This document shows positions 5,130 to 41,096 of a stretch of 48,516 bases of DNA, piece by piece (the stretch's first letter is position 1; every line of letters starts with the position of its first letter). Origin of the DNA: an uncultured Rikenellaceae bacterium (GTDB lineage Bacteria > Bacteroidota > Bacteroidia > Bacteroidales > Rikenellaceae). A model generated the notes under the pieces. The model made no database searches. It worked only from the letters and a program-made list of their open reading frames with translations, and had not been told where the DNA came from. Position numbers and translations under genes: made by a program. The stretch covers positions 1 to 48,516 of the forward strand of contig CALYBN010000127.1 of assembly GCA_944414825.1 (NCBI GenBank), read 5' to 3'.

Positions 5130-6605
5130 ATGAAAAGACATCCAATAATCTGCGGAATAACAACCCTTACCCTATTGAGCCTGACATGCTACGAATGCAA
5201 ACACGAGGAAAAATCTATCGATCCACCACAAATCGAGACGACCCTCCGCATGCCTCAGGATCAGCAGAAGATCGACCTGCACACTGTGACCGATCTGGAG
5301 TTCTCCTGGAACGTAAGAGCAGCTACGGAAGGGAGCAGCGCCCGTTACAAACTGCTGATCATCAAAGCTGACGGCAATTTCAATACGCCGCTGTTCGAAA
5401 TCGCATCTCGAAACGGAGGTCTTGGTACCTCAATCAGCCTATCGGCCCAGCAGCTCGACGAAATCGCCCTGCAGGCCGGAGCCCAGGCCCCTGCTTCCCA
5501 GGCACAGATAAAATGGAGCGTCAGCCTCACCACCGGAGGAAAAGAGACTCTGGCCGGCAACAGCCATACGCTGACCCTCACACGACTCAACACCTACGTG
5601 AATCCGGTCTACACACCGGATTTCCCCGACCCGACGGCCATTCGGGCCAATGACGGCTATATTTACGCCTACAGCACACAGAGCCGCCGCAACGGGAAGG
5701 TCCAATACGTACCGATCATCCGTTCGAAGGATCTCGTCACGTGGGAAGAGGTGGGTGGCGCCCTGCAAAAACTGCCCGACTGGAAAACCACGCCCGGCGG
5801 TGGCGTGTGGGCGCCCAACATCAACCTGATCAACGGGAAATACTATCTCTTCTACTCCTTTGCGGCGTTGGAAGATACCAACGAAGGGTGCGGACTGGCC
5901 ATCAGCGATACGCCGGGCGGACCGTTCACCGATTGTGGCAAGTTGTTCGACGTTTCGGAGATCGGCGTCGAAAACTGCATCGATCCGTTCTACATCTACG
6001 ACGAGGGGAAACATTACCTGTTCTTTGGCAGCCATCAGGGCATTTATGGCGTGGAGATGGATGCCGCCTTCTTTGCCAACCATGCAGGTCTGACACAAAA
6101 GGAGATCACGGGTTCAATCCTGAAAGAGACTCTGTTCCAGGTCGTCCCGAATGGGATCGAAGCCTCGTACATTTATAAGAAAAACGGTTATTACTATCTT
6201 TTCGGCTCCAATGGCAAAACCCTGAGCAGCGTGCCCGAAGAGATCACTTATAAAATAACGGTAGCCCGGTCGACCCATATCAAAGGGCCCTATGTAACGA
6301 AAGACGGCAAGGACTGGAGTTCCGGCCTATTCGTAGCAGTCCGCGACGCACAGCCGCTATTCGTAGGCAACGAGGTATTGAGAGGTCCCGGGCACAACGG
6401 CGAGATTCTGACCGATGCCAACGGCGACCAGTGGATCATCTACCACGCCGTGCTGGCAACGGAACCCTCGAAAAATCCGGACGGAACGGGCGGCGTCTGG
6501 CGCAGGCTTTGCATAGACAAAATTACGTGGACAGACGACGGCTGGTGTCAAATCGGGAACGGGACACCTGCTATTACCCTGCAACCTGCTCCCGTATGGA
6601 GATAA
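5130..6605 (+). CDS. Secreted GH43 arabinanase/arabinosidase with an N-terminal SusE-like domain
   Basis: Predicted arabinan-active glycoside hydrolase of family 43 with 491 residues. The N-terminus is a signal sequence; Cys20 or Cys23 may be lipidated, but neither sits in a perfect lipobox. Residues ~33-153 resemble the Ig-like N-terminal domain of SusE outer-membrane starch-binding proteins (PPQIETTLRMPQDQ..., LEFSWNV). Residues ~158-491 are a five-bladed GH43 domain: DFPDPT with base Asp167, GVWAPNINLINGKYYLFYSF, IDPFYIYDEGKHYLFFGS with Asp285, EASYIYKKNGYYYLF with acid Glu344, and GPGHNGEI carrying the conserved His. The pattern is nearest to endo-1,5-alpha-L-arabinanases. Together with the GH127-like lipoprotein across mutY it points to arabinose-containing plant glycans. 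No SusC/SusD pair or sensor gene lies nearby. Confidence 0.87.
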   Translation: MKRHPIICGITTLTLLSLTCYECKHEEKSIDPPQIETTLRMPQDQQKIDLHTVTDLEFSWNVRAATEGSSARYKLLIIKADGNFNTPLFEIASRNGGLGTSISLSAQQLDEIALQAGAQAPASQAQIKWSVSLTTGGKETLAGNSHTLTLTRLNTYVNPVYTPDFPDPTAIRANDGYIYAYSTQSRRNGKVQYVPIIRSKDLVTWEEVGGALQKLPDWKTTPGGGVWAPNINLINGKYYLFYSFAALEDTNEGCGLAISDTPGGPFTDCGKLFDVSEIGVENCIDPFYIYDEGKHYLFFGSHQGIYGVEMDAAFFANHAGLTQKEITGSILKETLFQVVPNGIEASYIYKKNGYYYLFGSNGKTLSSVPEEITYKITVARSTHIKGPYVTKDGKDWSSGLFVAVRDAQPLFVGNEVLRGPGHNGEILTDANGDQWIIYHAVLATEPSKNPDGTGGVWRRLCIDKITWTDDGWCQIGNGTPAITLQPAPVWR

Positions 6606-6690: not shown

Positions 6691-6733
6691 AAAAATATTG
6701 AGCAAAAAATTTGGAAAACCGAATCAGAAACTC

Positions 6734-6741
6734 TATTTTTG
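6734..6741 (+). promoter_or_regulatory. -7 promoter box of perR
   Basis: TATTTTTG matches TAnnTTTG and lies 40 bases before the perR start at 6782. Its last four bases overlap the first operator palindrome, so a bound repressor would block RNA polymerase directly. Confidence 0.65.
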
Positions 6742-9815: not shown

Positions 9816-9847
9816 TTTGCATGTTAGAAAACTAAACTATACTTTTG
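9816..9847 (+). promoter_or_regulatory. Promoter of the tRNA-Ser gene
   Basis: A -33 TTTG (9816-9819), a 20-base spacer, and a -7 TACTTTTG (9840-9847). This is among the best matches to the Bacteroidetes primary promoter in the window, as expected for a stable RNA gene. Confidence 0.75.
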
Positions 9848-26420: not shown

Positions 26421-27572
26421 ATGAAACGACTTTTTCACATAGGAGTATTGGCAACCGCTGTGCTGTTGAGCAGTTGTTCTCTATTCAAATTCTCGGTCAA
26501 CACGGGCGACAAGCCTCTGCCGGCCGCCGACCTCAACATGCGGATGATGACCCGCGGTTTCTATTACGAATTCTGCCAGGCAATCGTATCGACGGCCGAT
26601 TCGCTGATCGCAGCCACGCCCGACGCCGACCTGAAAATCCGGGCGCTCCGCTGGAAGATCGAAGCCACGTCGGCTTGTACGGCCACGGCCATGCAGACCC
26701 TGCCGGAGGTGGCACTGCTCGACACATGGGTTCTCTGCCGACAGATGGATACGTTGTTCCGCACGGCTCCCGACAGTATGCTCTTCGGCCCACTGACGCC
26801 GATCGCCCGCCAGACAGCCTCCCGCCTCAATGCCAAAGCAGCCCGACTGGCAGCCGAAGTGCTGACACCGGAACGTTATACCCTGATGGCTGATTTCGTC
26901 GACGACTATTGCCGGAAACACCCGCCGGGAACGCCCGATCTGACAGGCGATAACCTGATGTTGGAATGGGTGCAATATCTGGGCGATGCGGGTAAAAATT
27001 ATGTCAAGACCGTAGGTGCCGTTTCGGAAGTGATGGCTGACATCGGAGAGCGGACAAGCAGCTATATGGGCCAACTGAGCAACAGCATCTCGTGGTACAA
27101 GGAGATGGTCGAACTGCGACTGGAGCAGGACAGCATCCGTGACCGCCTCGCTCTGCAACTGGACAGTCTGGCCAACGACTTCCGCAAAATGGTCCTCATT
27201 CTGGAGCACACGCCGGAGATTGCCGATGCCATCGGGGCAAACCTCAACACACAGATGTCGGCACTCATCGGGACCCTGAACCGAAGTGTCGACGATGCCT
27301 TCCGGGACATCGACCACCAGCGGACCGAACTCCAACGTTTCGTCGCCGAACAGCGTGCCCTGATCATGCAGGAGGCTCGCCAAGCGGCCGATGCCACGCT
27401 GCGCAGTGCGCTCGACGCCCTGCCGGGAATGATCGGGAGTATACTTTTTTATGTCATTCTGGGAGGTGTGGTACTATTCTCCATTCCGTTCGGACTGGGA
27501 TTCCTGCTGGGACACCTCCGTGGCCGGAGTAAAGGGCATCGTTCGGGAAATCAAGCTAAAGATCCGGAATAG
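26421..27572 (+). CDS. Unrecognised helical lipoprotein with a C-terminal membrane helix
   Basis: I do not recognise a family. The product has 383 residues. A lipoprotein signal ends at Cys19 (VLLSSC). Residues ~35-335 look almost wholly helical, with a heptad-like stretch around 225-335 rich in Leu, Gln and Glu. A strong hydrophobic helix follows at ~338-364 (GSILFYVILGGVVLFSIPFG), then a basic tail (HLRGRSKGHR). By the positive-inside rule the tail would be cytoplasmic and the bulk periplasmic. If the lipid is sorted to the outer membrane, the protein would bridge both membranes. The residues after the Cys (SLFKF) do not resemble the acidic surface-export signal of Bacteroidetes lipoproteins. 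The gene overlaps the 3' end of ispE by 22 bases and has its own promoter. Confidence 0.85.
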   Translation: MKRLFHIGVLATAVLLSSCSLFKFSVNTGDKPLPAADLNMRMMTRGFYYEFCQAIVSTADSLIAATPDADLKIRALRWKIEATSACTATAMQTLPEVALLDTWVLCRQMDTLFRTAPDSMLFGPLTPIARQTASRLNAKAARLAAEVLTPERYTLMADFVDDYCRKHPPGTPDLTGDNLMLEWVQYLGDAGKNYVKTVGAVSEVMADIGERTSSYMGQLSNSISWYKEMVELRLEQDSIRDRLALQLDSLANDFRKMVLILEHTPEIADAIGANLNTQMSALIGTLNRSVDDAFRDIDHQRTELQRFVAEQRALIMQEARQAADATLRSALDALPGMIGSILFYVILGGVVLFSIPFGLGFLLGHLRGRSKGHRSGNQAKDPE

Positions 27573-28553: not shown

Positions 28554-29549
28554 ATGGAATTCCGAACCCCGATAGAAAACACCTCGCTCTGCCGACCGAT
28601 CGACCACTCGCGCCAGGGTCTGGCACTGGGTTCCTGCTTTGCAGAACTCATCGCCGGACGCATGCGACGGGCCAAGTTACCGATCGTGGTCAACCCCTTC
28701 GGGACGCTCTACAACCCGATGTCGGTAGCCGACACGATCGAGACGCTGGAGGCCGGCAGAACATTTGGCCCCGAAGAACTTGTGCAGTGCGGCGAGTTGT
28801 GGTGCAGTTTCCGGTTCCATGGCGACTTCGACTCGCCCGACCCGGCAGCAGCGCTCGAAGCCATGAACCGAGCCGTGGAGGAAGGTTCGCAAGCCTTGTT
28901 GCAGGCCGATTACCTGATCGTGACCTTCGGCACGGCCTGGGTCTACGAACTGGCCTCGTCGGACTCACACACGTCCAAAGGCGTCGTGGCCAATTGTCAC
29001 CGGTTTCCGGCCGGGATGTTCCACCGCCGCAGGCTCTCCGTGCAGGAAATTGTTGACCGTTACGAAGCGTTGCTCCAAGGGCCGCTGGCCGGCAAGCAGC
29101 TGATTCTGACCGTCAGCCCGGTGCGCCACCTGCGGGACGGTCTGGCCGGCAACAGTCTGAGCAAGGCGACCCTCCTCGTAGCGGTCCACGAGCTGCAGGA
29201 GCGCCATCCGGAACAAGTGGATTACTTTCCCGCCTACGAGATGCTGATTGACGACCTGCGCGACTATCGCTTCTACGCCGCCGATATGACACACCCTTCC
29301 GAAACGGCGGCAGCGTATGTCTGGGAGCACTTTGCCCAGACGGCCCTCACACCCCGCAGCCGGGAAGCGGCTCGCGAAGCCGAGAAAATCATCGCAGCCG
29401 CAGCCCATCGTCCGTTCAATCCGCAGACCGAGAGCCATCGGCAATTTCTCGCCTCGATGGCGGATCGCATCCGGGAGCTGGAGAAGCAATACCCTGAACT
29501 GGATTTCGCGGAAGAGTCCGCCTATTTCAATATGACCCAACCAAAATGA
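28554..29549 (+). CDS. GSCFA-domain protein
   Basis: A 331-residue protein of the GSCFA family, named for the motif seen here at residues 26-30 (LALGSCFAELIAGRM). Further family features are VVNPFGTLYNP, LIVTFGTAWVY, ILTVSPVRHLRDGLAGNSLSKATL, and YFPAYEMLIDDLRDYRFYAADMTHPS. The fold is thought to be SGNH-hydrolase-like: the Ser of GSC and the His near DMTHPS could form a catalytic pair, but the substrate is unknown. There is no signal peptide, so it is cytoplasmic. It overlaps the next gene by four bases (ATGA), which implies translational coupling. Confidence 0.9.
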   Translation: MEFRTPIENTSLCRPIDHSRQGLALGSCFAELIAGRMRRAKLPIVVNPFGTLYNPMSVADTIETLEAGRTFGPEELVQCGELWCSFRFHGDFDSPDPAAALEAMNRAVEEGSQALLQADYLIVTFGTAWVYELASSDSHTSKGVVANCHRFPAGMFHRRRLSVQEIVDRYEALLQGPLAGKQLILTVSPVRHLRDGLAGNSLSKATLLVAVHELQERHPEQVDYFPAYEMLIDDLRDYRFYAADMTHPSETAAAYVWEHFAQTALTPRSREAAREAEKIIAAAAHRPFNPQTESHRQFLASMADRIRELEKQYPELDFAEESAYFNMTQPK

Positions 29550-29929
29550 AACGCCACCTGACATGTCCCTCCTGCAGTGCGCAGGTCAAGATTCCCTGGC
29601 TGTGGATACTGGGAGTGGAGATCGTCTTCTGCTGTCCGCAATGCCGACAACGATTCAAAACCGGATACAAGGCCGGAGCCGTTCTGTTTGCCCTAGGCCT
29701 GACCGGAGCCGTAGCAACGGTCAACCTGGGGGCATGGCTATTCTCGTCGCTGTCGATCCCCGTGATGGCTCTGGCCGTGATTCCGCTGTGGCTATTCTAC
29801 GGTTTCCTGCTGCGCCGATGGTGGCTGTTGCGCCGGGTCCGCCACGGACGTACGGCCCGTCGCGAACGCATGAGCCGTCGTGCCGAAATCCGCCAAAAAC
29901 AAGAGCAACAATCCCACTCGCAACAATAG
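29546..29929 (+). CDS. Small membrane protein with N-terminal zinc ribbon
   Basis: A 127-residue protein that I cannot assign to a named family. A probable zinc ribbon is formed by CPSC (7-10) and CPQC (30-33). Two hydrophobic segments follow at ~44-66 and ~68-90. The C-terminal 35 residues are highly basic and then Gln-rich (RRVRHGRTARRERMSRRAEI). It overlaps the GSCFA stop by four bases, so the two are made together. The arrangement suggests a membrane-bound adaptor with its metal site in the cytoplasm, which is inference. Confidence 0.8.
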   Translation: MKRHLTCPSCSAQVKIPWLWILGVEIVFCCPQCRQRFKTGYKAGAVLFALGLTGAVATVNLGAWLFSSLSIPVMALAVIPLWLFYGFLLRRWWLLRRVRHGRTARRERMSRRAEIRQKQEQQSHSQQ

Positions 29930-30018
29930 AATACGCAAAGGAATCGTTCTAGCACAAAACAAAAAACGAATATTGACGTCGAAAGACCCCGTTTGCTGGT
30001 TTTTCGATAGTTTCTTCG

Positions 30019-30026
30019 TATATTTG
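30019..30026 (+). promoter_or_regulatory. -7 promoter box of the PafA-like/sufE operon
   Basis: TATATTTG, 20 bases before the start at 30047. A TTTG lies 23 bases upstream (29992-29995), a slightly long spacer. Confidence 0.55.
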
Positions 30027-30046: not shown

Positions 30047-31660
30047 ATGAAACGTATCTTATCCATACTCTCCCTGACCTGCCTGCTGGCCTTGCCGGCC
30101 TTGGCCTCAACACCGCCCCGCTTGGTCGTAAATATCGTCGTAAGTCAAATGCGTTATGACTACCTGACCCGGTTCGGCAAGAACCTGTCGGAGAACGGAT
30201 TCAAGCAATTCGCCAAAGAGGGCATCGTCTTCTCTGACAGTCGGTACGACTTCATGCAGACAATCACGCCCGCTACGTTGGCCACCCTCACCACCGGAGC
30301 CGACCCCTCGACCCACGGCATCGTATCGGAACGCTGGATCGACTACACCAGCAACCGGACCATCGATCTGATCGCCGACACCAAAGTCATCGGACTGAAC
30401 TGCGACGCCGGCATCGGACAATATTCCAATGAGAATATCATCGTTCCCACGCTGGGCGACCGGCTGAAGGAACACAGTCCGGAGAGCCGCGTCATCACGA
30501 TCGCCACCGACCCGGTGTCGGCTATTGTCATGGGTGGAGAGAGCTCCGACGTTTATTGGATGGACAGCACACGCGGAATGTGGGTCTCCTCGACGGCTTA
30601 TATGCGCGAGTTGCCACAATGGGTGGTGCGCTATGACTCACTACGCGTGGCATCACAGTACCTGGACTACCAGTGGTTACCCACCACGTCGAAAGACCTC
30701 TATGTGAACAACGCCTATACGATTTTCGACTTCCAGGACAAAAGCCGGCTGCGGAAGCTGGTTTCGTTCGATTTTCTCCGCAAAAAGGATAACAACCAGA
30801 ATTTCCAACGACTACTCTATACACCGGTCGGGAACTCGCTGGTGACGGAGTTCGTCAAACAGGCCGTCATCTACGAAAACCTCGGCAAGGACGAATATAC
30901 CGACCTGCTTAACATTTGTTTCGACACTCCGCGCCGCGTGGCACAACGCTACGGCGGCGAATCGATGGAGGTCGAGGATATGTTCTACCGGTTGGACGAG
31001 GAGTTGGCTGAACTGCTCACGTTCCTCACGGCACAGGTACCCAAGGAGGAGATCGTGGTGGTGCTGACCGCAGACCACGGAGCCAGCGACTCGTACGATT
31101 ACGGAGAGAAACCGCGCGAACGGTTCAATACGGCCCAATTCAAGGTAATCCTCAACGGGTTCATGAATACGCAATACGGTCCGGGGGACTGGGTGATCGA
31201 CTATTGCGACCGGCAGATCTACCTGAACCGCAACCTGGTCTACACGAACAACCTCAGTCTGGAAGAGGTGCAGAACCGCGTGGCGGCCTTCGTGCTGCAA
31301 TTCCGCGGCGTGGCCCACGTGTTGACCTCCACAGCCCTGCAAACCAGTTCGTTCGGAGGCGGATATGCCAAGCAGATGCAGAACAGTTTCTATCCCAAAC
31401 GCTCGGGCGACCTGCTGATCAACCTCATGCCGGGATGGATCGAAGAGATCGAAGGACAGCGCACAGCCTCCGGTTCGATGTACGAGTATGACACCCACGT
31501 ACCCCTGATGATGTGGGGCGCCCGGTTCTACGGGCAGAAAATATCACGGCCGGTGGATCAGAAGGATGTCGCACCGACCCTGGCACGCATCATGCAGATC
31601 AGCCGACCGATCGCCTCGGAGGGAGAACCGATCGAAGAGGTCACTACGCTTTTCGAATAA
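30047..31660 (+). CDS. PafA-like alkaline-phosphatase-superfamily protein, probably inactive
   Basis: An exported protein (signal peptide 1-20) of 537 residues with the whole PafA-type fold. The regions around the active site are easy to align to PafA of Elizabethkingia, but most functional residues are changed. Zn ligand D38 is S33 (VVSQMRYDYL), D305 and H309 are R296 and Q300, H486 is S475, substrate residue N100 is E95, and the K162-x-R164 pair is T154-x-P156. The nucleophile position (T74) and one zinc pair (D343-H344 in TADHGAS) remain. It cannot bind two zinc ions in the normal way, so I call it a pseudoenzyme with a structural or binding role. sufE starts on the last base of its stop codon. 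Confidence 0.88.
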   Translation: MKRILSILSLTCLLALPALASTPPRLVVNIVVSQMRYDYLTRFGKNLSENGFKQFAKEGIVFSDSRYDFMQTITPATLATLTTGADPSTHGIVSERWIDYTSNRTIDLIADTKVIGLNCDAGIGQYSNENIIVPTLGDRLKEHSPESRVITIATDPVSAIVMGGESSDVYWMDSTRGMWVSSTAYMRELPQWVVRYDSLRVASQYLDYQWLPTTSKDLYVNNAYTIFDFQDKSRLRKLVSFDFLRKKDNNQNFQRLLYTPVGNSLVTEFVKQAVIYENLGKDEYTDLLNICFDTPRRVAQRYGGESMEVEDMFYRLDEELAELLTFLTAQVPKEEIVVVLTADHGASDSYDYGEKPRERFNTAQFKVILNGFMNTQYGPGDWVIDYCDRQIYLNRNLVYTNNLSLEEVQNRVAAFVLQFRGVAHVLTSTALQTSSFGGGYAKQMQNSFYPKRSGDLLINLMPGWIEEIEGQRTASGSMYEYDTHVPLMMWGARFYGQKISRPVDQKDVAPTLARIMQISRPIASEGEPIEEVTTLFE

Positions 31661-32106
31661 TGAACAACCCGCAAACGAAAATGACAACGGATAACATACA
31701 AGATCAGATCATCGAAGAATTTTCGGTCTTCGACGACTGGCTCGACAAGTACAACTACCTGATCGAGTTGAGTGCAGAGCTTCCGGCTATCGCGCCCGAA
31801 CACCGCACGGACAACTATATTATCAAAGGCTGCCAGTCGCGCGTGTGGGTCGACGCACGCGAGGAGGATGGCAAAGTCTATTACAGCGCCGACAGCGACG
31901 CCATCATCACCAAAGGGATCATCGCCCTATTGATCCGGGTGCTGAACGGCCGTACGCCGCAGGAAATCCTCGACACGGACCTCTACTTCATCGAGCGGAT
32001 CGGGCTGCGAGAGAACCTCTCCCCGACCCGTGCAAACGGTCTGCTGGCGATGATCAAACAGATGCGGCTCTTCGCTCTGGCGTTTGCAAGCAAAAAGGAG
32101 GCATAA
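31660..32106 (+). CDS. sufE: Cysteine desulfurase sulfur acceptor SufE
   Basis: Accepts sulfur from the desulfurase SufS for Fe-S cluster assembly. It has 148 residues. The active cysteine lies in the conserved loop IIKGCQSRVWV, followed by the family signature SDAIITKGIIALLIRVLNGRTPQEI and a C-terminal GLRENLSPTRANGLLAMI. The start ATG overlaps the upstream TAA by one base; a second ATG seven codons in (31681) is possible. No sufS, sufB, sufC or sufD lies in the window. A DUF59 gene follows after four bases, which supports an Fe-S role for this part of the operon. Confidence 0.94.
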   Translation: MNNPQTKMTTDNIQDQIIEEFSVFDDWLDKYNYLIELSAELPAIAPEHRTDNYIIKGCQSRVWVDAREEDGKVYYSADSDAIITKGIIALLIRVLNGRTPQEILDTDLYFIERIGLRENLSPTRANGLLAMIKQMRLFALAFASKKEA

Positions 32107-32110
32107 CAAC

Positions 32111-32434
32111 ATGGCCACACCACAGGAAATACTCCAGGCAGAACAGGACATTGTCCTGGTACTGAAGAATATATATGACCCGGAGATCCCGGTCAATATC
32201 TACGATTTGGGATTGGTCTACGAGATCGAGGTCGAACCGGGAGGCATCGCCACGATCCGGATGACCCTCACGGCTCCGAACTGCCCCATGGCCGAGCAAT
32301 TGGTCGAGGAGGTCAATGCACAAGTCGCTAAAGTAAAAGGAATCAGCGAGGTGAATGTTATTCTGACCTTCGATCCGCCCTGGGACAAAAACATGATGTC
32401 GGAAGAGGCCCTGCTGGAACTGGGACTGTTCTAA
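32111..32434 (+). CDS. DUF59/MIP18-family Fe-S assembly protein (SufT-like)
   Basis: A 107-residue MIP18-fold protein. Seen: ILKNIYDPEIP-type start (VLKNIYDPEIPVNIYDLGLVY), TLTAPNCPMAEQLVEEV with the conserved Cys, and a C-terminal VNVILTFDPPWDKNMMSEEA. Relatives (SufT, PaaD, the eukaryotic CIA factor MIP18) help mature Fe-S proteins. Its position four bases after sufE agrees. The start at 32111 gives the usual N-terminus. It is short enough to be a stand-alone MIP18 domain. Confidence 0.93.
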   Translation: MATPQEILQAEQDIVLVLKNIYDPEIPVNIYDLGLVYEIEVEPGGIATIRMTLTAPNCPMAEQLVEEVNAQVAKVKGISEVNVILTFDPPWDKNMMSEEALLELGLF

Positions 32435-32456: not shown

Positions 32457-33731
32457 ATGACTCAAACCGAACTGCAAACGGAACTGCTGAAGATCCTCTG
32501 GACCGTACTCGACCGAAAAGACTACACGGCCGAGACCGGAGAACAGGTCTGCATTCTCCAGCCGGGAGAATACGACCCGGAAAACGATCGGTTTTGCAGT
32601 GCGGAGATCCGGCTGGACGATGCCGTATACCGGGGCGAGATCGTAATTCGCGCCGAGGCTCAGCCGGAGATCGAACGATACGACCACTGTATTCTGCACG
32701 TCGCACCGCAGACAACGTCACACCTCTGTCGGCAGGACGGAACGCTGTTGCCTCAGATCGTCGTGGAGTGCGACAAGGAGTGCCTGCGGCTCTACGAAAC
32801 CTTCCGACATGGACGGAGCAATGCCGTGTGCGGCAACTATCTCGCAGCATTGTCAAATTGCCACCGGGTGGATCTCTTTACGCGGCTGACGCTCGACCGC
32901 CTGCAACGGAAGTGCGGCGACCTGTTCCGGATCCACGACGAATGCGAGCGAAACTGGCATGAAACGATGTACGTCATGCTGCTGCGGACCATGGGCGACA
33001 GCCGCAACAAAGAGGCTTTCACGGAACTGGCCCGTCGCGTAGGCTATGCCGCCGTCTCACGTGAACGGGATTCGCTGCTGAATGTCGAGGCGCTGTTGCT
33101 GGGAACCTCCGGCCTACTGGAGAAGTACGAGGAGGACGGCTATATCCGCACGCTGAAAGAGGCGTTCGATTACCTGCGCAATAAATATTCAATCCGGCCG
33201 CTGCCGGCCGGACTCTGGGATACCAGCCGAAATAATCCTTTCAACCATCCGGTCATCAGGCTGGCCCAACTGGCGGCTTTCCTCTCGACGCAGGAGTTTC
33301 TGTTCGACAACCTGATCCGCTGCCGCACGGTGGAGGATGTACACAATCTGTTCCGGGCCGAAGCGTCGGAATACTGGTCGACACACTTCATCCCCTCCGG
33401 CTCGTCGGCTCCGCGTCCCAAACGGATCGGCTCCTCGAAGGCCGACCTGCTGGGGATCAACCTGGTGGTACCGATGCAGTTCGCCTATGGCGACTATCTG
33501 AACGACGAGGAGTTGAAAGACCGGGCGCTGGGACTGTTGGAGCGCATCTGGTGTGAGGACAACCGCATCGTGCAGTCTTGGCGCGAACGCGGCGTGGTAA
33601 TGGAGAGCGCTTTCGACACGCAGGCCATTCTGCAACTCAACAACGAATACTGTCTGAAAGGACGGTGCAGCGACTGCGCAGTGGGCCGCGGAATAATAAA
33701 AAACAGCTATATGCAAAGGTTTTCCAAATAA
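32457..33731 (+). CDS. DUF2851 family protein
   Basis: A 424-residue cytoplasmic protein that I recognise as DUF2851, a family seen mainly in Bacteroidetes, with unknown function. The N-terminal half carries CILHVAPQTT and several charged motifs. The C-terminus ends in a cysteine cluster, NEYCLKGRCSDCAVGRGI (C-x4-C-x2-C), that could bind a metal. It lies 22 bases after the DUF59 gene in the same operon. A metal or Fe-S link is suggested by this context only. Confidence 0.85.
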   Translation: MTQTELQTELLKILWTVLDRKDYTAETGEQVCILQPGEYDPENDRFCSAEIRLDDAVYRGEIVIRAEAQPEIERYDHCILHVAPQTTSHLCRQDGTLLPQIVVECDKECLRLYETFRHGRSNAVCGNYLAALSNCHRVDLFTRLTLDRLQRKCGDLFRIHDECERNWHETMYVMLLRTMGDSRNKEAFTELARRVGYAAVSRERDSLLNVEALLLGTSGLLEKYEEDGYIRTLKEAFDYLRNKYSIRPLPAGLWDTSRNNPFNHPVIRLAQLAAFLSTQEFLFDNLIRCRTVEDVHNLFRAEASEYWSTHFIPSGSSAPRPKRIGSSKADLLGINLVVPMQFAYGDYLNDEELKDRALGLLERIWCEDNRIVQSWRERGVVMESAFDTQAILQLNNEYCLKGRCSDCAVGRGIIKNSYMQRFSK

Positions 33732-33777: not shown

Positions 33778-36700
33778 ATGGACATTTTAGCAGGCATCAT
33801 CAAACTGTTCTTCGGAACCAAAAGCGACAAAGACCGCAAAGAGATACAGCCCTATGTCGACAAGATCCAGGCCGTGTATCCCGAAATCGAAAAACTCTCC
33901 AACGACGAACTGCGCGCTCGATCCGAGAGGCTGAAAAAAAGTATCGCAGAATACATTCAGGCCGACGAACAACGAATCGTGGAACTGAAAGAGAAACTGG
34001 AACTCCCCACCACATCGCTCGACGACAAAGAGGCTATCTCGAAAGAGATCGACAAACTGACCCAGAAGATCGACGATGACATCGAGACGAAACTCGACGA
34101 GATTCTGCCCGAAGCATTCGCCATCATGAAGGATACGGCACGACGTTTCGCTCAGAACGAAGAGGTCGTGGTGACGGCCAACGATTTCGACCGGGATCTG
34201 GCTGCCACGAAGGATTTCGTGCGGATCGAGGGCGACAAGGCCATCTATGCCAACCACTGGGAGGCCGGAGGAAATATCGTCACGTGGGACATGGTCCACT
34301 ACGACTGCCAGCTGTTCGGCGGTGTCGTACTACACAAAGGCAAAATCGCCGAGATGGCAACCGGTGAGGGTAAAACACTGGTAGCAACGCTGCCGGTCTT
34401 TCTGAATGCACTGGCCGGCAAGGGCGTGCACGTGGTGACGGTGAATGACTACCTGGCCCGGCGTGACTCGGAGTGGATGGGCCCGATGTATGAATTCCAC
34501 GGATTGTCGGTAGACTGCATCGACAAGCATCAACCCAACTCCGACGCCCGCCGCAAAGCCTACATGGCCAGCATCACGTTCGGAACCAACAACGAGTTCG
34601 GTTTCGACTACCTGCGCGACAACATGGCCACGGACAAGGACGAGCTGGTACAGCGCAAGCATCACTATGCCATCGTCGACGAGGTCGACTCCGTCTTGAT
34701 CGACGACGCGCGAACGCCGCTTATCATCTCGGGTCCGGTACCCAAGGGCGACGACCAGATGTTCGAACAGTACCGCCCCTATATCGAACAACTCTACAAT
34801 CTGCAGAAAGGATTGGTGACCCAGTTGGTGGCCGACGCCCGGAAGTTGATCAATGAGGGGAAGAACAACGAGGGCGGCGTGCTGCTCTACCGTGCCCACA
34901 AAGGTCTGCCCAAGTATAAGCCGCTGATCAAGTTCCTCAGCGAGCCAGGCGTGAAAACCCTGATGCAGAAGACCGAGAATATCTACATGCAGGACAACAA
35001 CCGCCGCATGCCGGAGATCGTGGATGACCTGTATTTCGTGATCGACGAGAAGCTGAACTCGGTGGAACTGACCGACAAGGGACACGATGTTCTTGCTCGG
35101 AACGTGGGCGACGACAAATTCTTCGTCCTGCCCGACATTGGCAGCGAAGTGGCAGATATCGAAAAAGAGGACATCTCTCCCGATGAGAAAGCCCAGAAGA
35201 AAGATGAATTGATCAACAGCTACGCCGTCATCACGGAACGCGTCCACACGATCAACCAGTTGCTGAAAGCGTACAGTATGTTCGAACGCGATGTGGAATA
35301 CGTGGTGATGGACAACAAAGTGAAGATCGTCGACGAGCAAACAGGCCGTATCCTCGACGGGCGGCGCTATTCGGACGGGTTGCACCAGGCCATCGAAGCC
35401 AAGGAGCGCGTAACGGTGGAGGCTGCCACGCAGACGTTCGCCACGATCACCCTGCAGAACTACTTCCGCATGTACCACAAGCTGGCAGGTATGACCGGTA
35501 CGGCCGAAACGGAAGCCAGTGAGTTCTGGAACATCTACAAACTGGACGTGGTGGTGATCCCCACCAACCGTCCGGTGATCCGCCAGGACTACGACGACCT
35601 GATCTATAAGACGAAACGCGAGAAATACAACGCCGTGATCGAGGAGATCGTCAAACTGGTGGGCGAAGGACGCCCCGTACTGGTGGGTACGACCTCGGTG
35701 GAAATTTCGGAATTGTTGAGCCGCATGCTGAAACTGCGCGGCATCAAGCACAACGTCCTGAACGCCAAGCAGCACCAGCTGGAGGCACAGGTAGTAGCCG
35801 AGGCGGGTCGCAGCGGCCAGGTGACGATCGCCACCAACATGGCCGGTCGTGGTACCGATATCAAGCTGACCCCCGAGGTAAAGGCCGCCGGCGGTCTGGC
35901 CATCATCGGTACGGAACGCCACGAATCACGCCGTGTGGACCGTCAGCTGCGCGGTCGTGCCGGACGTCAGGGTGACCCGGGATCGTCGCAGTTCTTCGTG
36001 TCGCTGGAGGACAACCTGATGCGACTGTTCGGATCGGAGCGTATCGCCGGCCTCATGGACCGCATGGGACTCAAGGAGGGCGAGTCGATCCAGGCCGGCA
36101 TGATGTCGAAAGCCATCGAACGCGCCCAGCGCAAGGTGGAGGAGAACAACTTCGGTACCCGGAAGCGGTTGCTGGAGTATGACGACGTGATGAACTCTCA
36201 GCGTGAGGTGATCTACACGCGCCGCCGCCATGCACTGTACGGCGAACGGATCGAGATTGACCTCAACAACATCATGCTCGACTTCGCCGAAACGTTCGCC
36301 GAGACCTATGGCAAGGAGGAGTTCGAAACCTTCTCGATGGAAATGATCCGCCAGGTGGCCATCCAACCCTCATTCGACGAGGCGGCCTACCGAAGCGCCA
36401 ACCGCGAGAAACTGGCCGAGATGATCGCAAAAGACCTTCAGGATACCTATGCCCGTCGGGCCGCACAGGTGGCCAACACGGCCAAACCGGTGATCGACAA
36501 GGTCTACATGGAGCAGGGGTCGCAATACGAGAATATCGTTATCCCGATCGTTGACGGCAAGCGGGGTTACAACGTACCGGTCGATCTGAAGAAATGTTAT
36601 GAAAGCCAGTGCGCCGAAATATATAAGACTTTCAGCAAGGTGCTGATGTTACTGAGCATCGACGACAACTGGCGGGAGCACCTGCGCGAGATGGACGACC

Positions 36701-37083
36701 TGCGTCAGAGCGTCCAGAATGCCGCCTACGAGCAGAAAGACCCGTTGCTGATCTACAAGTTCGAGTCATTTGAACTGTTCAGCAAGATGTTGGGCAAGAT
36801 TAACCGTGAGGTGCTCTCGACGCTGAACAAAGGTTATATCCCGGTACGGGACGCTAATACGGAAGAGGCCATGCGGCAACGCCAACAACAGCAGGAGCGT
36901 GCCAAGGTAGACATGAGCCGGCTTCAGACCTCACGCGCCGTGGATGCAGCACGCAACGCCAGCACGGCTGAAAAGAGCAAACCGGCTCCGGTGCATGCCC
37001 AACCCAAAGTGGGACGCAACGATCCATGTCCCTGCGGCAGCGGCAAGAAATACAAGAACTGCCACGGCCGCGGCGTTGCATAG
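33778..37083 (+). CDS. secA: Preprotein translocase ATPase SecA
   Basis: Motor ATPase of the Sec pathway that drives unfolded proteins through SecYEG. It has 1101 residues, about 200 longer than Escherichia coli SecA, as usual in Bacteroidetes; the additions lie in the first ~180 residues and around residues 340-490. Seen: Walker [10 protein letters not shown] (193-201), [85 protein letters not shown], and the C-terminal zinc tail [18 protein letters not shown] (CxCx8CH). The DEAD motor, preprotein cross-linking, helical scaffold and SEC-C parts are all present. No paralogue is in the window. Confidence 0.98.
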
Positions 37084-41064: not shown

Positions 41065-41096
41065 TTTGCAGGCCCAAAAGGATTTTACTATTTTTG
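41065..41096 (+). promoter_or_regulatory. Promoter of the ureohydrolase-nhaA operon
   Basis: TTTG (41065-41068), a 20-base spacer, and TATTTTTG (41089-41096), 25 bases before the ATG at 41122. It is a full consensus match and fixes the start. Confidence 0.7.

Follow-up and report, generated by a model that had tools for sequence, protein, structure and literature searches.

A predicted pseudoenzyme derived from the phosphatase PafA, with a conserved gene neighbourhood in Rikenellaceae

The window analyzed here, a 48,516-nucleotide stretch of DNA from an uncultured Rikenellaceae bacterium (contig CALYBN010000127.1), carries on its forward strand at 30047-31660 a single intact open reading frame, from ATG to TAA, for a PafA-like protein of 537 amino acids. 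A match to the Bacteroidota-type promoter (TTTG-N23-TATATTTG, 29992-30026, forward strand) lies 20 nt 5' of the start codon, with a spacer slightly longer than the N19-21 usual in Bacteroidota. Five matches to this type of promoter were found in the window versus 0.39 expected; the other exact ones, of the form TTTG-N18-24-TANNTTTG, are located at 6710-6741, 9816-9847 and 41065-41096 on the forward strand and at 6518-6552 on the reverse strand. The product begins with a signal peptide (MKRILSILSLTCLLALPALA, 30047-30106, forward strand), judged by eye to be of type I and lacking a lipobox, and similar N-termini are present in homologues. Apart from this signal peptide the protein has no transmembrane domain of its own.

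The surrounding genes, all on the forward strand, are organized in a conserved manner. Upstream, a GSCFA-family gene (28554-29549; PF08885, E 1e-79) is a conserved neighbour according to synteny. Downstream follow sufE (31660-32106; PF02657, E 1e-46), whose ATG overlaps the stop codon of the PafA-like gene (TAATG), a SufT/MIP18-like (DUF59) gene (32111-32434; PF01883), a DUF2851 gene (32457-33731; PF11013, E 4e-81) and secA (33778-37083), recognized by its SecA domains. The same arrangement recurs in Rikenellaceae relatives, in the order ispE (on the opposite strand), GSCFA, often a small TRASH-like gene, the PafA-like gene, sufE, the SufT-like gene, DUF2851 and secA, and in most of the loci examined sufE starts between 20 nt before and 55 nt after the stop codon of the PafA-like gene. 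A previous sequence-only reading of this DNA had placed the gene at the head of an operon with sufE and secA. The promoter match and the TAATG overlap fit such an arrangement, but secA is the fifth gene and not the next one. Around half of the Rikenellaceae loci have the small gene between GSCFA and the PafA-like gene; in the window (29546-29929) it encodes a 127-amino-acid protein with a CxxC zinc-ribbon-like start, transmembrane segments and a sub-threshold TRASH match (PF24273). Further upstream, at 26421-27572, lies a lipoprotein-like open reading frame of 383 amino acids that has stretches resembling coiled coils and matches nothing in Pfam. Open frames of 834-891 amino acids around some Rikenellaceae copies were considered as GSCFA fusions and rejected as read-through in another frame.

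Along its whole length the protein matches Elizabethkingia PafA (5TJ3; phmmer, E 1e-65), a well-studied, phosphate-insensitive alkaline phosphatase. It scores 82.9 bits (E 4e-23) against Pfam family PF01663 (Phosphodiest), which has a gathering score of 23 bits, and matches PF00884 weakly; against the PafA equivalog of NCBIfam (NF042991) it reaches 398.7 bits, under the cut-off of 650 bits. An AlphaFold2 model built from 12 sequences (the window and related loci) has a mean pLDDT of 68, with a strong core and weak regions at residues 212-249 and 420-481. In Foldseek (E 1e-35), the best solved matches of this model are 5TJ3/5TOO, followed by PhoK, and VIA-align superimposes model and 5TJ3 with a Z-score of 47.4 over 429 residues at 5.5 A, compared to 39.0 for 5xwk and about 26 for NPPs. 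Retention of the AP-superfamily fold, in its PafA form, is predicted with confidence. In addition to full-length homology, predicted fold and export, the two proteins share the succession of their core motifs (VVSQMRYDYL, THGI, EVEDMFYRLD, ADHG and YDTHVPL). PhoK/SPAP (3Q3Q, 5XWI) ranks second among the solved relatives, both in sequence and in the model comparison (Z 39), but, unlike the window protein, it retains every catalytic residue.

The active site is where the window protein departs from PafA. Residues were aligned to 5TJ3 with HMMER and, together with PhoK and 43 homologues, with MAFFT; the ligand table spans 42 intact and 95 degenerate homologues, and the counts for Rikenellaceae refer to 31 distinct sequences, of which 30 are aligned at D38 because of one gap. 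Zinc site 1 of PafA we take to be formed by D305, H309 and H486, and zinc site 2 by T79, D352/H353 and D38. No PafA ligand is left in the first site: D305 has become R296 (30932-30934; Arg 28, Lys 2 and Ala 1 of 31), H309 has become Q300 (30944-30946; Glu 23, Gln 3, Arg 3, Ser 1 and Lys 1 of 31) and H486 has become S475 (31469-31471; Ser 24, Thr 4, Ala 2 and Trp 1 of 31). In the second site D38 is lost to S33 (30143-30145; Ser 23 and Gly 7 of 30), whereas T74, at the position of nucleophile T79 (30266-30268; Thr in 24/31), and D343-H344, corresponding to D352-H353 (31073-31078; Asp in 28/31 and His in 30/31), are retained. The phosphate clamp is absent as well, with E95 (30329-30331) in place of N100 and D155-P156-V157 (30509-30517) in place of K162-D163-R164. 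Compared to PafA, four of the six zinc ligands and all three clamp residues (N100, K162 and R164) are thus replaced, and only the equivalents of T79, D352 and H353 remain of the six ligands plus the Thr nucleophile. All codons named are on the forward strand. The sequence-only reading had arrived by eye at the same replacements for D38, D305, H309, H486 and N100 and at the same survivors, and both alignments reproduce them. It also had T154 and P156 for K162 and R164; this placement stems from a gap, and the ungapped MAFFT alignment gives D155 and V157, yet the clamp is lost under either placement.

That the catalytic columns are lost is not a matter of chance, for they are invariant or nearly so across the 42 intact Bacteroidota PafAs. 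Because overall conservation is equal in both kinds of proteins (identity to the group consensus is 0.585 for the intact group versus 0.57-0.61 for the degenerate groups), constraint has gone from the PafA chemistry and not from the protein. There is good support for the view that the window protein does not belong to the zinc phosphatases of the PafA type. What would count against a pseudoenzyme had been named beforehand, namely close relatives with intact ligands or other Asp and His residues taking over the zinc sites. The former do not occur among the Rikenellaceae sequences, since D305, H309 and H486 are missing in 31/31 and D38 in 30/30, and the replacements are themselves shared across the clade. 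With regard to the latter, Arg, Glu/Gln and Ser occupy the columns of D305, H309 and H486, but a new conserved acid has appeared at D293 (30923-30925, forward strand; acid in 27/31 Rikenellaceae, Ser in 40/42 intact PafAs). As it lies three residues before R296, an altered single-metal site is conceivable from the sequence.

Of 120 Rikenellaceae genomes 113 carry the gene, and of the 89 high-quality ones 87 do. The carriers have a single full-length copy each, as the second matches found in two genomes cover only about 90 residues. A genome of the same genus (G001) contains neither the gene nor secA, and the absence of the former is therefore probably an assembly gap. For pairs of close relatives with dS near 1, dN/dS (Nei-Gojobori) ranges from 0.03 to 0.11; pairs that include the window gene give 0.08-0.16, with saturated dS. 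Clade-wide catalytic loss (31/31 degenerate) is thus combined with purifying selection. The idea of one decaying gene copy, or of a misalignment, draws on nothing other than the missing active-site residues; it is contradicted by family-wide presence, a dN/dS far below 1 and consistent columns across independent alignments. Decay is ruled out by the first two of these, and the explanation as a whole has a negligible probability. Purifying selection and near-universal presence in the family uphold the earlier judgement of a conserved, exported pseudoenzyme that is not decaying. Within the limits of sequence evidence, the data support an AP-superfamily pseudoenzyme with an unusually conserved gene neighbourhood.

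Relatives of this protein are widespread in the order. The PafA-like family occurs in 173 of 247 Bacteroidales genomes (order-level survey, weak matches counted), and the copies read are mostly degenerate, with the greatest degeneracy where the gene lies directly 5' of secA. Outside Bacteroidales, the top hits in Bacteroidota are all intact (29/29, of which one is gapped at D38; phylum survey). In 20 loci of other families the degenerate copy directly precedes secA, with a gap of 4-217 bp. These homologues, an unnamed family, resemble the window protein in being degenerate, exported and located near secA. Unlike the Rikenellaceae pseudoenzymes, in which T74 and D343/H344 survive and whose gene partner is sufE, they have lost even T79 and D352/H353, the latter being replaced by Thr-Gly, and are paired with Lnb. 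The lipoprotein N-acyltransferase gene lnb, on whose product Armbruster et al. reported in 2024 (as cited in PMC13103446), is found immediately 5' of the secA-adjacent copy in 19/20 loci. Its identity was confirmed by Pfam (PF25221/PF13387) on two of these homologues. Coordinate comparison places the end of lnb no more than about 250 bp 5' of the pseudoenzyme gene in 37 order-level genomes.

An exported protein encoded directly 5' of secA in one clade recalls a SecM-like secretion monitor, in which translation pausing controls secA, and Bacteroidota arrest peptides upstream of secA do exist and end in Pro-stop (PMC10987492). No arrest motif was detected: the window protein ends in EEVTTLFE-stop and the secA-adjacent relatives have no shared Pro-stop end. 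Three genes separate the pseudoenzyme from secA in Rikenellaceae, and constraint spans the whole domain of 500 residues. We rejected this candidate as highly improbable.

The lnb-pseudoenzyme-secA order also brings up a role in lipoprotein maturation, as a subunit or a regulator working with Lnb or Sec, its function being kept in Rikenellaceae with another putative acyltransferase. The pair of lnb and pseudoenzyme gene persists without secA in one locus (L225), and in one MAG of a related family (genome G064) both are naturally fused in a single frame of 926 amino acids (L116, 8140-10917, reverse strand). Here, the periplasmic domain of Lnb is followed by five transmembrane helices, the former signal peptide, which is likely a sixth transmembrane helix, and the pseudoenzyme, a topology that fits a pseudoenzyme in the periplasm. 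Yet, the fusion stems from that one MAG, adjacency is not interaction, and in many Bacteroidales both genes are on different contigs. Moreover, lnb is absent from Rikenellaceae (0/61 genomes, PF13387), so the link with Lnb cannot explain the copy in this family and a partnership of the window's own protein with Lnb is ruled out. We regard this explanation as rather improbable. Neither is the secA link universal, since in many environmental Bacteroidales the gene is far from secA and lnb; there a GGGPS-PPTase-gldD-gldE-ssb-mutY block runs towards it on the other strand, ychF and an M14 peptidase gene precede it (names read from the sequences and not from Pfam), and the genes upstream of secA are unrelated. 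The convergent block was seen in seven loci (L130, L132, L140, L147, L149, L157 and L158).

The sequence-only reading had suggested a binding, scaffolding or checkpoint role. Our preferred reading, to which we assign a probability of roughly 0.5, is that of a catalytically dead, PafA-derived periplasmic protein that would serve binding or scaffolding in the export or maturation of envelope proteins; we infer the role in export from the gene neighbourhood alone. A pure scaffold fits less well, as T74, D343 and H344 are conserved though a scaffold would not need them. The old pocket of the Rikenellaceae proteins may have acquired a new arrangement of conserved charges, made up of D293, R296 and E/Q300 along with the kept T74, D343 and H344. 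The arginine R296 could replace the positive charge once given by zinc, and the refitted pocket would bind an anionic ligand, a peptide or a partner in a metal-free manner and without hydrolysis. In the secA-adjacent clade the pocket appears to be abandoned, with Thr-Gly at D352-H353, which would suit a role of the protein surface. The two groups may be doing different things. A broader version, in which pseudo-phosphatases derived from PafA act across Bacteroidales in the export of envelope proteins and lipoproteins, as a periplasmic partner of Lnb and Sec in gut Bacteroidales and with a metal-free anion pocket in Rikenellaceae, is possible, though we hold it to be doubtful.

The same retained residues are the basis of the main rival for the Rikenellaceae protein, that catalysis persists: as a hydrolase or transferase with one metal, the protein would rely on T74, D343 and H344, perhaps helped by D293 or E300, and act on something other than phosphomonoesters. 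Conservation of T74, D343, H344 and D293 within the family argues for it, and so does the precedent of YejM/PbgA/LapC, whose AP-fold domain was judged by one group to be without catalytic residues, while another reported Mg-dependent phosphatase activity (PMC7576196, PMC7018646). As this dispute shows, a sequence by itself cannot decide such cases. Similar to the pseudoenzyme, YejM/PbgA/LapC combines a periplasmic AP-superfamily domain and disputed catalysis (in YejM) with a link to envelope biogenesis, and its five transmembrane helices followed by an AP-fold domain resemble the single Lnb-pseudoenzyme fusion. It is, however, a gammaproteobacterial protein of another subfamily with another transmembrane domain, and the comparison is made at the level of the shared superfamily. 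Against one-metal catalysis speak the Ser or Gly at D38, the other ligand of the nucleophile-side zinc site, the arginine in place of D305 and the lost phosphate clamp. Furthermore, the secA-adjacent clade has been retained despite the loss of T79 and D352/H353, and one homologue (L015) is without most of the retained set. We therefore consider this rival unlikely, and favour the catalytically dead binding or scaffolding protein.

Genes of this kind match phosphatase models and are likely annotated as 'alkaline phosphatase', while the PafA site is gone in most Bacteroidales copies read. A survey of PafA left out sequences in which key residues were altered (PMC8812569), and such proteins would therefore have escaped notice; a limited literature search found no report of degenerate PafA homologues beside secA. 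A conserved exported protein encoded between lnb and secA, or heading a secA operon, is a candidate for an unrecognized part of envelope export in abundant gut bacteria. In addition, related families with intact, half-lost and fully lost active sites form a good series for the change from enzyme to pseudoenzyme.

Intact members in Bacteroidales fall into two sets. The first comprises true PafAs, four of which (L044, L104, L120 and L124) occur together with a degenerate copy in the same genome (L045, L103, L119 and L075), while L029 and L128 were read alone. In some of these genomes the degenerate copy is the secA-adjacent one and a separate intact PafA is encoded elsewhere (L044/L045, L103/L104, L119/L120), so that the degenerate copy is not the PafA of those genomes. 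The second set consists of a few members within the degenerate clade (families f60, f62 and f85; L072, L076-L079 and L088). A tree with masked catalytic columns unites the degenerate proteins with the four inner intact ones that were sampled (SH-aLRT 98), and it also unites the Rikenellaceae (SH-aLRT 100). A single clade of the copies linked to secA is compatible with the data (AU p 0.446), so this link may have arisen once or twice. The tree shows four changes between the intact and degenerate labels; a single loss of the active site is compatible with the data (AU p 0.092), but the tree and family f85 suggest several independent losses. In family f85, an intact copy (L076, on L139) and two degenerate ones (L074, on L149, and L081, on L151) adjoin the same M14 peptidase gene.
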